Shown piece by piece: positions 18,685 through 23,943 of a stretch of 51,631 nucleotides of DNA. The notes beneath the pieces are model-generated. The model was not told where the DNA came from. It did no database searches and saw only the letters and a program-made list of their open reading frames with translations. This DNA is from Myxococcales bacterium. Lineage in GTDB: Bacteria > Myxococcota > UBA727 > GCA-2721815. The DNA lies in NCBI GenBank assembly GCA_002721815.1, contig PBLQ01000010.1, positions 17,594 to 69,224 of the forward strand. The letters are read 5' to 3'. The position numbers and the translations under genes are program-made. Position 1 is the first letter of the stretch. Each line of letters starts with the position of its first letter.

Positions 18685-20226
18685 ATGCAACACTTTTTCG
18701 TCAGCTTAGTGGTATTTGCTGCCAGCTGGGTCGCTGCCGCACCCGCCGCAGCTTTTTGTGGTTTTTACGTGGCCGGTGGCGATACGTCTTTATTCAATGA
18801 TGCCACCCAAGCCGTGCTCATGCGCGAGGGCAATCGCACGGTTTTATCCATGCAAAACAACTACGATGGCCCACCCGAGGATTTTGCCATGGTGATTCCG
18901 GTCCCAGTGGTCCTCCAACAAGAAAATGTCAAAACCTTGGACGAAGCGCTTTTCACCAAATTAGACCGCCTCACCGCGCCTCGCCTGGTGGAATATTGGG
19001 AACAAGACCCTTGTGAATCGCTCGGTTTTTCCGACATGGGCGATGGTATGGCGGCGGAGTTTGCATCGGTGAATGACGATCGCGCAGAGGGCTCTGTGGA
19101 GGTGGAAGCCGAATTTTCCGTGGGCGAATACGACATTGTCATTTTGAGCACCGATGATGCCACGGCCCTTGAAGGTTGGCTGGAAACAAACGAATACAAC
19201 ATACCCGATAATGCGTCCCCCTATTTGAACCCCTATGTGGAAGGCGGCTCCTACTTTTTCGTCGCCAAAGTAGATCCAGACAAAGTCACTTGGGCAGCGG
19301 AAGATGACATGAGTACAGGCGCGGTGTTGTCTCCCCTGCGTTTTCATTATGACGATGACGTTTTTTCTTTGCCCATTCGCTTGGGGCTCATCAACTCCCA
19401 AGGCGACCAAGACCTGATCGTGTACACCCTGGCTGAAAATCAGCGTTACCAAGTGGCGAATTACGAAAACGTGACCATTCCCACCAACATCGAAGTGGTG
19501 GATGACGTGCGGCACTCTTTCGGTGAGTTTTTCACCACACTCTATGATGCCGTCTTGGAGTCCACCCCAAATGCCGTGGTCACCGAGTACAGCTGGGACG
19601 CCAGCTCTTGTGACCCCTGTCCGGGTCCAACCCTAGATCAAAGCGACTACCAAACCTTGGGCGCCGATGTTTTGTACAGCGAAACAGGCGAAAATCAGTG
19701 GCGATCTTTCGTCATCACCCGCCTTCACGCCCGTTACAACGCGGATAACCTGGGTGAAGATCTCATACTGGAAGAAGCCGGTCCCATTGCCGGTGGTCGC
19801 GAATTTGTTCAAGATGATGGCATCCTCGAACAGGGCGCCCAAAATTCCAGTATCAACAATTTTCAAGGTCGCTATATTATCCGACACGCCTGGGAAGGCG
19901 CGGTGATGTGTGCTTTTCCTGAATGGGGGCAATGGGGCGGCCCGCCAGAAGGGGGTGATGCTGAAGTCTTAGGTGCACTCAGTCCCAACAGCGAAGGCAC
20001 ATCAGTGAATGCAGAAGGCGACGATGACCTTTCCGATGATTTGAATGACTTGGTCCTAACCCCCATTCCCGAATTGGGCATCACCGGTAATCAAGCACCC
20101 GGCCTTTTTGGTGGCGCGGGTTGTGGCTGTGATGCCACTCGAGCATCACACAGTGGCTTTTGGCTGCTGGGTGCAGGCCTTTGGTTTGTGATCGCACGAA
20201 GAAGAAAAGAAAGAGGATACGAATGA
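18685..20226 (+). CDS. DUF2330 protein with MYXO-CTERM-like tail (first copy)
   Basis: A 513-residue exported protein. Signal peptide 1-24 (ending AAPAAAF), then the DUF2330 core starting CGFYVAGGDTSLFNDATQ and VLMREGNRTVLSMQNNY, with the conserved CDPCPGP Cys pair about two thirds along. The C-terminus has a short Cys motif (GAGCGCD), a hydrophobic segment and an Arg-rich end (RRRKERGYE), the layout of MYXO-CTERM sorting tails processed to anchor proteins at the cell surface. The function of DUF2330 is not known. ATG 18685 has CAGGGAG seven bases upstream; the frame is open earlier but has no signal peptide there. It overlaps the paralogous next gene by ATGA. Confidence 0.9.
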   Translation: MQHFFVSLVVFAASWVAAAPAAAFCGFYVAGGDTSLFNDATQAVLMREGNRTVLSMQNNYDGPPEDFAMVIPVPVVLQQENVKTLDEALFTKLDRLTAPRLVEYWEQDPCESLGFSDMGDGMAAEFASVNDDRAEGSVEVEAEFSVGEYDIVILSTDDATALEGWLETNEYNIPDNASPYLNPYVEGGSYFFVAKVDPDKVTWAAEDDMSTGAVLSPLRFHYDDDVFSLPIRLGLINSQGDQDLIVYTLAENQRYQVANYENVTIPTNIEVVDDVRHSFGEFFTTLYDAVLESTPNAVVTEYSWDASSCDPCPGPTLDQSDYQTLGADVLYSETGENQWRSFVITRLHARYNADNLGEDLILEEAGPIAGGREFVQDDGILEQGAQNSSINNFQGRYIIRHAWEGAVMCAFPEWGQWGGPPEGGDAEVLGALSPNSEGTSVNAEGDDDLSDDLNDLVLTPIPELGITGNQAPGLFGGAGCGCDATRASHSGFWLLGAGLWFVIARRRKERGYE

Positions 20227-21785
20227 AAAAACCTGGATTGTTTATTTTGGGCCTAGCCGCCTTCGCATTTGCCCTTCCCCAAAATCTCTATGCTTTTTGT
20301 GGGTTTTATGTGGCTGGTGGCGATGCCAGCCTTTTTAACAATGCCACCCAAGTGGTACTCATGCGCCATGACAACCGCACGGTGCTGTCCATGCAAAACA
20401 ACTACGACGGCCCCACCGATGATTTCGCCATGGTGGTCCCAGTGCCGGTGGTGCTGCAGGAAGCCAATGTGCAAACTTTAGACGCCGAGCTTTTCAACAA
20501 AATCGACCAACTCTCCGCACCACGACTGGTGGAATACTGGGAACGGGATCCGTGCAACCCTTGGATGGATATGCTGGAAGACGGCGCCGTTAACGCGGCC
20601 GGCGGCGAGCCCCCAAACACGGATGACGTGACGGTGGAAGCCGAGTTTCAAGTGGGCGAATATGACATCGTGATTCTCAGTGCCAATGATGCTTCCAGCC
20701 TGGAAACCTGGCTCACCTCCAACCAATACAATATCCCAACCGGCGCGGCCGAACACTTCACGCCGTATATTGAGGCAGGTGAGTATTTCTTCGTGGCTAA
20801 AGTAGATGCGACGAAAGTCACCTTTGAAGATGGCAAAGCAGTGCTGTCTCCCTTACGCTTCTATTATGACAGCGAGACGTTTTCCCTGCCCGTCAAATTG
20901 GGACTCATCAATTCCCAAGGCACCCAAGACATTATCGTTTATATTTTAGCCGTCGACCAACGTTACGAAGTGGCCAACTACGATAATGTGTTTATTCCCA
21001 CCAACCTGGCGGTCACCGAGGATGTCAAAGAGAACTTTGGTCCCTTTTATACCTCGCTTTTTGCTGAGACCATCAATCAAGCCCCCAACAGCGTTGTCAC
21101 CGAGTACAGCTGGAACGCTTCCACCTGCGATCCGTGTCCGGGCCCAACCTTAGATGCGACAGACTACGCCACTTTGGGCGCAGATGTAGCCGGCGCACCG
21201 GAGAACAGTCGCAATTGGGTCCTCACCCGTTTGCATGCACGGTACGAGGCCGACGGCTTGGGACAAGACCTGGTCTTTCAAACCGCCGACCCCATCGTGG
21301 GCGGACGCCAAATGTACACCTGGGATGGCGAAGAGCGTGGCGATCTGGAACAGGGTGCCCAACCAGGCAACGTGAACAACTTTCAAGGGCGGTACATCAT
21401 TTACCATCCGTGGGACGGCGAACTCACTTGTGATGAAGGCCAAGAACCCGTCTACGGCGAATGGGGCGGCCCCGATGGTGATGAAGCCAGCGGCACAGCC
21501 GGTTCGGCCATGTCCCCTAACAGTACAGGAGAGGACGTTCCTCAAAGCAATTCGGACAATCATGTGACCGAGCTTTCTTCGTGGCTGGTGAATGATTTGC
21601 CCGAACTCAATATCGTGGCCAATGGCGGCAATGCCGGTAATAACGCGGTAGGCGGCACCAACATTGAGCCAGGCCAGCAAAGCCAAGCCTGTGCATGCCG
21701 TGAGAGTGGGTCCCAAACGACCACCGGCTTATGGGGACTTGCTCTTTTGTTCATGGGGCTCTTGGGTTTCAAACGACGCGACTAA
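20223..21785 (+). CDS. DUF2330 protein with MYXO-CTERM-like tail (second copy)
   Basis: A 520-residue paralogue of the preceding gene: signal peptide 1-22 (ending LYAF), CGFYVAGGDASLFNNATQ, VLMRHDNRTVLSMQNNY, the same CDPCPGP motif, then a Gly/Asn-rich linker and a tail of CACRESG, a hydrophobic helix and FKRRD. The two copies align over nearly their full length and share most blocks, so they arose by tandem duplication with later divergence, chiefly in the linker before the tail. Coupled to the first copy by ATGA overlap and to the pentaheme lipoprotein by a one-base gap. Role unknown; probably surface-exposed. Confidence 0.9.
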   Translation: MKKPGLFILGLAAFAFALPQNLYAFCGFYVAGGDASLFNNATQVVLMRHDNRTVLSMQNNYDGPTDDFAMVVPVPVVLQEANVQTLDAELFNKIDQLSAPRLVEYWERDPCNPWMDMLEDGAVNAAGGEPPNTDDVTVEAEFQVGEYDIVILSANDASSLETWLTSNQYNIPTGAAEHFTPYIEAGEYFFVAKVDATKVTFEDGKAVLSPLRFYYDSETFSLPVKLGLINSQGTQDIIVYILAVDQRYEVANYDNVFIPTNLAVTEDVKENFGPFYTSLFAETINQAPNSVVTEYSWNASTCDPCPGPTLDATDYATLGADVAGAPENSRNWVLTRLHARYEADGLGQDLVFQTADPIVGGRQMYTWDGEERGDLEQGAQPGNVNNFQGRYIIYHPWDGELTCDEGQEPVYGEWGGPDGDEASGTAGSAMSPNSTGEDVPQSNSDNHVTELSSWLVNDLPELNIVANGGNAGNNAVGGTNIEPGQQSQACACRESGSQTTTGLWGLALLFMGLLGFKRRD

Positions 21786-21786
21786 T

Positions 21787-23943
21787 ATGAACATAGGGTT
21801 ATTTCACCGAAGCGGGCTGTGGTTATGGCCCGCTTTTCTTTTGTATTTGGGGTGTCCCCGTGTGGTTGCCCCGCCACAAGTGTTGGTGCCCATCGACACG
21901 GGCCCATACGGCCCCAGCTTGACCCAGGTTCAGGGCGATGAAGGGCCTATAGACTTTCAGCAAGCGCCTGCCGCCTGTGCGTCCTGCCATAAAGAACAAA
22001 CGCGTGATTGGCAGCAAAGCATGCATGCCTTCTCGTCGTTCAACAATCCTTTTTACCGGTTTAATTTTGACAACTATGTGGATGAAAAAGGGTTCGACAA
22101 AGGACCTTTTTGTGCGGGCTGCCACGACCCGGCACCTTTGCTCTCGGGTGAACTCAAACAGAAGATGCAACCACAATCCATCAATGCACACGTGGGGATT
22201 AACTGCATCTCTTGTCACCTCACCCAACATGCCGACTTTGATGGTAATGGGTCTTACACCTTGAACGCCGCTTCTTTGCTGCTGCCACAGGGCGAAAACC
22301 CTCAAAAGCTAAATGCGCATCGAGCTCAAATGGCATCACCAAAGCAACTGGGTAATGCACTGTGTGTTTCTTGTCACCGCGGGTTTTTGTCCCAAGAAAC
22401 CGGACACGATATTTTTATCCCCGCCCTGGAAGACTGGGTGCCGTTTCGACACTCGGGGTATAACCAACAAAAAGGAACCCGTGTGGACGAGCCCGCCCAG
22501 GCCCATCAATGCATTGACTGCCACATGCCGCTAAAAACCTTGCCCAATGGACAGACGGTTCACGACCATCGTTTTGTTGGCGGTCACACCGCATTTAGTC
22601 ACATGGCCCAGTTGGATGTTCAACACCAAAAGAACAAAACCTTATTACAGAACGGTGCGAAACTTTTTGTCCCCATCGTGGGGTTTGACCAAAAGAAGGG
22701 CCAAACATTCGAAGAAAGTCTTCAGTGGCAAGAAGCCAACAATATTTTCTTTGATGTGGTTATTTTCAATGCCAATACAGGTCACCATTTCCCAGGCGGC
22801 GCCAAAGACATCAAAGACACCTGGCTCGAAGTACGTATCACCGATGAAAACGACAACCTCGTGGCGCACAGTGGCATGGCCCATGAAAAAGAAGCACATG
22901 ATTTAGACGCACACCGCTTGGGCGTGGTTCAAATTGACGAAAAAGGCCAACCGGTCCTAGAGCACCGCGTGGCTCACTTTCGAACGGCGGCGTTTGATCA
23001 CACCATTGGCCCCCGAGACGCACGGGTCATCCGGTACGCATTGGACCTCCGGCAATACCCGAACGCCAAAGGCAAAAGCCTCACGGCCCGTGTTCGGTTA
23101 CGTTACCGGCGTCTTCTGCCTTCTTTTTATGAAACATCTTGTGAGGCCTCCCAAACCGAGCGAGGCCAAGCCTTTTTGGCGGCCACTCAAAAATATAATG
23201 GGGTCACACTCAACCCATGTTCTCCCCAACCCGTGATTGACTTACATGAAACCGTCTTTTCATGGATCACACCAGACGCCCCCATTCAACGGGTGGTCAG
23301 TCCCCAGGCGCTGTGGGCCCATGGCCTGGGAATGCTGCACGCCCTCAACGAAAAGGTCTTTTTGGCCCGACACTCTTTCGATTTGGCAAAGGCGACCGCC
23401 ACCCGGTTCAATCAGTTGGCGCAATGGGAAAGCCGGCTGGCCTGGGCCCAAGCCACCGTCTCTGGCAAACAGGGACGCTCCGACGAAGCCATCTCTCTTT
23501 TTGATGCCGAACTGAAAAAAAATAAAAATCATCCCGCTTTATTGATGGGTGCCGCCCAAGCCCATATTCGCACCTGGCGGTTTAAAGAGGCCATCCCCTA
23601 TTTGGAAAAAGCCTTTAGGCAAGCCCCCCAAGATGCCCGGATCGCAGTGGATCTGGCACGTTCTTACGCGGCAAATCGCCAATACCCCCGAGCCCTCCAA
23701 ACGGCTCAAGCCGGATTAAGGTTCGCACCGAGAAACCCACACCTTCTTCGCCTGCAGGCCATCTCTTTAGAGCGAACGCATAAAAATTCCGATGCCGCAC
23801 GACAGGCACGGCAAGCCTTTTTGAAATACAAAAGGGATGAATTAGCGCCCGCCATTCAAGGTCGGTGTCAAGACCAGAACCCCTTCTGTAAAAGAGAACG
23901 TTTGGGATTTCACACCCATTGGCTCACAGCGCCCAAAAATTAA
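21787..23943 (+). CDS. Pentaheme c-type cytochrome lipoprotein with TPR-like C-terminus
   Basis: A 718-residue protein. Lipoprotein signal with LYLGC (lipidation at about Cys23). Five CXXCH heme sites follow: residues 64-68, 109-113, 140-144, 193-197 and 242-246. Many additional His residues can act as distal ligands. After a beta-rich middle region, residues about 560-680 form TPR-like helical repeats (LLMGAAQAHIRTWRFKEAI, DLARSYAANRQYPRALQ). It is therefore an envelope electron-transfer protein, with partner-binding repeats. The redox partner and direction are unknown. ATG 21787 begins one base after the DUF2330 stop, so all three genes form an operon. The frame is open earlier but only inside the preceding gene. 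Confidence 0.9.
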   Translation: MNIGLFHRSGLWLWPAFLLYLGCPRVVAPPQVLVPIDTGPYGPSLTQVQGDEGPIDFQQAPAACASCHKEQTRDWQQSMHAFSSFNNPFYRFNFDNYVDEKGFDKGPFCAGCHDPAPLLSGELKQKMQPQSINAHVGINCISCHLTQHADFDGNGSYTLNAASLLLPQGENPQKLNAHRAQMASPKQLGNALCVSCHRGFLSQETGHDIFIPALEDWVPFRHSGYNQQKGTRVDEPAQAHQCIDCHMPLKTLPNGQTVHDHRFVGGHTAFSHMAQLDVQHQKNKTLLQNGAKLFVPIVGFDQKKGQTFEESLQWQEANNIFFDVVIFNANTGHHFPGGAKDIKDTWLEVRITDENDNLVAHSGMAHEKEAHDLDAHRLGVVQIDEKGQPVLEHRVAHFRTAAFDHTIGPRDARVIRYALDLRQYPNAKGKSLTARVRLRYRRLLPSFYETSCEASQTERGQAFLAATQKYNGVTLNPCSPQPVIDLHETVFSWITPDAPIQRVVSPQALWAHGLGMLHALNEKVFLARHSFDLAKATATRFNQLAQWESRLAWAQATVSGKQGRSDEAISLFDAELKKNKNHPALLMGAAQAHIRTWRFKEAIPYLEKAFRQAPQDARIAVDLARSYAANRQYPRALQTAQAGLRFAPRNPHLLRLQAISLERTHKNSDAARQARQAFLKYKRDELAPAIQGRCQDQNPFCKRERLGFHTHWLTAPKN

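Follow-up and report, generated by a model that had tools for sequence, protein, structure and literature searches.

We consider it moderately probable that the operon analyzed here, in a window of 51,631 nucleotides (the whole stretch of DNA under analysis) from a Myxococcales bacterium, exemplifies a conserved Myxococcota cassette: DUF2330 genes precede the gene of a pentaheme cytochrome that carries a TPR domain, and the encoded proteins are exported and become anchored together in the envelope. The DUF2330 genes are located directly before the five-heme lipoprotein gene, both here and in many Myxococcota, so that the encoded proteins very likely act jointly at the cell surface. The components come from known families, and the cassette is undescribed as far as the literature searched shows.

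The three genes are tightly packed on the + strand and form one operon (Table 1). The first junction is an ATGA overlap and the second a 1-bp gap, just as the initial annotation had read them. A BacA/UppP gene lies upstream (Pfam). The gene downstream, encoding a hydantoinase-B subunit (Pfam), is convergent, and the cytochrome gene is therefore the last of the operon. The source genome has 4.6 Mb in 74 contigs. The perfect palindrome that had been pointed out upstream of the operon is real, but it was rejected as a candidate operator, since such sequences occur at chance level (7 perfect 12-mers in the window versus about 12.6 expected).

Table 1. Features of the operon and its upstream region, in window coordinates.
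Feature	Position	Strand	Description
Perfect 12-bp palindrome TTAACGCGTTAA	18603-18614	.	upstream of operon
DUF2330-A	18685-20226	+	513 aa; signal peptide, DUF2330 domain, MYXO-CTERM-like tail GCGC...RRRKERGYE
Modelled mature DUF2330-A core	18754-19929	+	invariant C2, C87, C286, C289; AF2 model
DUF2330-B	20223-21785	+	520 aa; tandem paralogue of A; tail CAC...FKRRD
Pentaheme TPR lipoprotein	21787-23943	+	718 aa; signal peptide, five CxxCH, Ig-like domain, C-terminal TPRs

A locus scan of 84,980 species genomes returned 80 Myxococcota DUF2330 loci (1.19 Mb in total), 10 of which are undecidable because they run off the contig. An orthologous five-heme gene was found directly downstream and on the same strand in 23 of the 70 decidable loci (the 23rd, L098, is a fragment with two CxxCH), a positive outcome for the survey of multiheme genes beside DUF2330 that the initial annotation had proposed. 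The 1.19 Mb contain 22 ORFs with at least three CxxCH, all directly downstream of DUF2330, when random placement would give about 0.2. These cassettes, with one to four tandem DUF2330 genes before the cytochrome, come from Nannocystaceae, Kofleriaceae, Sandaracinaceae, Polyangiaceae, and Archangiaceae/Myxococcaceae. The remaining 47 loci, each with at least 700 nt following, had no cytochrome. Since the majority of DUF2330 genes are without the cytochrome, the linkage marks a subset; genes of this kind had been named in advance as counterevidence, and they restrict the proposal to this subset while the cassette stands.

A second survey covered 174 genomes of the phylum, not picked for DUF2330, with the cytochrome called at E below 1e−90. 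The cytochrome was present in 14 genomes, all of which also carry this type of DUF2330, versus 17 of the 160 others (Fisher test; P = 1.7e−12, uncorrected for kinship; 12 of the 14 are one family group). The two genes are adjacent in 11 of these genomes and apart in 2 (G043 and G163, with separate contigs, C73 and C316, in G043); in G171, the contig stops too early to decide. The separation of the parts in G043 and G163 implies that co-transcription is not essential. Some genomes were included in both surveys (L096 = G094, L120 = G131, and L122 = G167), which makes these only partly independent of each other. When 58 relatives were considered, no multiheme gene was found beside the DUF2330 regions examined, save one in G002 (about 6 kb away and on the opposite strand), and the sole full-length cytochrome orthologue was that of G043, where both DUF2330 genes are on a different contig. 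The first view drawn from these relatives, that the link was unique to the source genome, was overturned by the scan of 84,980 genomes.

Among the neighbors of the DUF2330 loci, no specific family recurs at a fixed place as a third cassette member; the next commonest, Ser/Thr kinases, are scattered over 13 loci without a fixed position. In the DUF2330 tree, cassette members are spread over many clades (21 label changes versus a shuffled mean of 37), which suggests that the association either is old and was lost many times or has formed repeatedly. Two loci show particular arrangements. In G043 (L071:3522-6226), the gene after one DUF2330 gene encodes a Rieske-type iron-sulfur protein in the cytochrome's place, and a Kofleriaceae locus (L112:591-13315) has seven tandem DUF2330 genes, in an array that runs off the contig and beyond which a cytochrome may lie.

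Both DUF2330 proteins are full members of PF10092 (189 bits for A and 192 for B; Pfam gathering cut-off, 24.7), in agreement with the initial annotation. Their cores are 62% identical, and the pair clusters with both G043 copies in the DUF2330 tree (support of 99). The motif CDPCPGP, which had also been noticed, is present in both copies, and its two cysteines are invariant across 117 relatives. The invariant cysteines of the mature core are C2 (117/117), C87, C286, and C289. An alanine directly precedes the sequence FCG in 116 of the 117 relatives and position −3 is occupied by a small residue in nearly all of them; together with the invariant cysteine, this predicts that signal cleavage occurs before FCG and that the mature protein begins with F-C-G (at 18754 in A and 20295 in B). 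The loop after C87 is hypervariable (27 to 40 aa in the relatives) and corresponds to residues 91 to 113 of the modelled core (AF2; pLDDT, 86; pTM, 0.86), where it is disordered. Sequence searches retrieved no significant PDB relative of DUF2330, the literature search found no paper naming the domain, and no homologues were confirmed in viral contigs. Within DUF2330 at large, the window proteins belong to a subset marked by MYXO-CTERM tails and by the cytochrome linkage.

The third protein matches Cytochrome_C554 (PF13435) in its N-terminal part and TPRs in its C-terminal part. Its five CxxCH lie between 21976 and about 22524, and it carries a lipobox-like YLGC (Cys codon at 21853), in agreement with its description as a five-heme lipoprotein with a TPR-like end. 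Exactly ten histidines are invariant across 18 full-length orthologues, five in the CxxCH motifs and five others (H55, H153, H236, H308, and H351, numbered from window base 21862), which predicts from sequence five bis-His hemes and suggests that none of them is open. The best PDB match of the AF2 model (pLDDT, 88.5; pTM, 0.90) in Foldseek was 5ze8 (E = 5.7e−11; TM of 0.66 on the target), the low-potential c552 of Thermochromatium tepidum, followed by TPR proteins; a profile of the cytochrome without its TPR part again ranked 5ze8 first (2.3e−11). The five-heme domain and the Ig-like domain after it are common to both proteins: the Foldseek alignment on 5ze8 spans 485 columns, and the c552 sequence aligns with the GH.FP histidine of the window cytochrome's Ig-like domain, where the sequence match is weak. 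The PHC family, defined by a pentaheme and an Ig-like domain, unites c552, Geobacter ExtKL, Gsu2801, and the cable-bacteria proteins (sPHC/lPHC) and is related to an archaeal cytochrome nanowire (PMC11976967). The window clade differs from these proteins by a C-terminal TPR domain, an invariant H351, two C-terminal cysteines, a lipoprotein anchor, and fixed DUF2330 neighbors. A distant TPR-containing pentaheme paralogue of 827 aa, with the H351 histidine, is found in G002 (L080:8737-11217), with no DUF2330 in the 20 kb examined.

MYXO-CTERM signals are defined by a Cys signature, a transmembrane stretch, and an Arg-rich end (PMC11980579). Both DUF2330 tails have this architecture of Cys motif, helix, and basic end, yet they miss the curated cut-off of TIGR03901 (14.5 bits for A and no match for B; cut-off, 20), so that the MYXO-CTERM-like assignment of the initial annotation holds for the architecture and not for the family model. 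A G043 orthologue passes it with 30 bits, and in the source genome about 19 further MYXO-CTERM matches exceed it. The myxosortase (MrtX) that such sorting calls for was also looked for: the genome encodes a single CPBP protease resembling MrtX, with the motifs EExxxR and HxxxN, although at 95.5 bits it is below the 180-bit cut-off. In four cassettes (L096, L114, L120, and L122), the cytochrome is without lipobox and all the DUF2330s are without MYXO tails, whereas in the others the cytochrome has a lipobox-like cysteine and at least one DUF2330 is tailed. The four anchorless cassettes lie in one clade of the DUF2330 tree, so the anchor loss is a single evolutionary event. This joint loss is consistent with products that share a common location. 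DUF2330s without MYXO-CTERM (L001, L004, and L007; L096:8439-9995) frequently have a Trp/basic motif at their C-terminus (LPWYKRIWGD, RPWWKFWGS, SFWDRLWGQ, and KRWWEFWK), which could be an alternative C-terminal signal.

The best-supported explanation of the cassette is an envelope complex of DUF2330 and an electron-transfer cytochrome, with the TPR domain as the likely dock. The DUF2330s would be anchored by their C-terminal MYXO-CTERM-type signal and the cytochrome by its N-terminal lipid, and the TPR domain may dock the latter onto the DUF2330s, forming a complex at the surface or outer membrane. The cytochrome, whose five hemes are predicted to be bis-His with no open site, would pass electrons rather than catalyze. 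The DUF2330s, which combine an exposed Cys2 at the N-terminus with a CxxC pair and a hypervariable loop, could be its client, its partner, or a scaffold. Of this picture, the gene order and how often it recurs, the number of hemes and ligands, the cytochrome's match to the c552 fold, and the joint anchor state are observed; complex formation, the direction of electron flow, and surface exposure are what we infer.

The initial annotation had seen in the operon a surface module for electron transfer or for the maturation and assembly of such proteins. This interpretation is supported in part: nothing was found in favor of maturation or assembly, and a surface-anchored module containing the multiheme cytochrome finds good support in the conserved linkage and in the joint anchor loss of one clade. 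Classical extracellular electron transfer, in which the cassette would be the surface end of a conduit reducing minerals or other cells, would account for a multiheme lipoprotein and surface-sorting tails, and PHC proteins such as ExtKL, to which the cytochrome is kin, have been discussed in this context (PMC11976967). We nevertheless regard it as unlikely, because in no lineage does the cassette repeatedly include a porin gene or a second multiheme gene, leaving the outer-membrane porin of MtrCAB-type conduits without a counterpart, and because the source genome has no match to MtrB/PioB (PF11854). To our knowledge, the combination of five hemes and TPRs is also unlike the known surface terminal reductases.

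A catalytic pentaheme enzyme, reducing nitrogen or sulfur oxyanions or peroxide with DUF2330 as the substrate-side partner, is suggested by other PHC proteins, which were grouped as potentially catalytic owing to a five-coordinate heme (PMC11976967). In the TPR clade, however, the five additional invariant histidines match the number of hemes, and H351 is specific to this clade: the ten TPR-less PHCs in the comparison carry W, L, or some other residue there, although they often have the histidine of an HxFW motif, which may replace it. Catalysis by the window cytochrome appears quite improbable.

The modelled DUF2330 core provides a lead of a different kind, a possible likeness to the baculovirus P35/P49 caspase inhibitors. 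P35 gave the only Foldseek matches below 1e−3 in the PDB (five chains; best, 1i3s at 3.0e−5 with a probability of 1.00; also 1p35 and 1i3p; next family at 0.17), and in the viral library BFVD p49 was on top (6.8e−5), followed by P35 (8e−3); no other family was matched significantly in either library. P35 acts through its N-terminal Cys2 and the cleavage of a reactive loop at D87 (PMC7863939), and it also inhibits gingipain (PMC3375223). The DUF2330s have a cysteine at predicted mature position 2 and an exposed variable loop near residue 87, and the same genome encodes a gingipain-like peptidase of family C25 that bears a MYXO-CTERM tail (G000:C61:240076-242616; L177). As a hypothesis, DUF2330s could be surface-displayed pseudosubstrate protease inhibitors of the P35 fold: on cutting the variable loop, a clan-CD cysteine protease, such as the gingipain-like C25, would be trapped with the help of Cys2, and the cytochrome would keep the thiols reduced or be an unrelated passenger. 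Several observations make this improbable. The TM-scores are just 0.23 to 0.40, with about 10% identity; Pfam P35 (PF02331) matches none of the 117 DUF2330s, which, unlike P35, are exported bacterial proteins; a P35 family search of 39 genomes, run without a positive control, gave no match; no C14 caspase-like peptidase was found in the source genome; Cys2 and Cys87 may merely pair in disulphides; and the loop has no conserved cleavage site. We hold it as a tentative possibility that DUF2330 represents the P35/P49 fold in bacteria, displayed on the surface and coupled in Myxococcota to a dedicated pentaheme-TPR cytochrome, in a redox-linked surface thiol or protease-inhibitor system without described parallel.

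A mere coincidence of neighborhood, with DUF2330 and cytochrome acting separately as their separation in G043 and G163 might suggest, is very hard to reconcile with the recurrence statistics, the strict order and orientation, and the joint anchor state.

The cassette pairs DUF2330, a widespread domain of unknown function, with a specific redox partner that is conserved, and its cytochromes define a pentaheme clade set apart by a TPR domain and a complete complement of predicted bis-His ligands. The function of both partners can thereby be tested directly in relatives available in culture (Plesiocystis, Enhygromyxa, and Nannocystis). Should the likeness to P35 be borne out, it would also point to relatives of a viral inhibitor fold in cellular organisms.
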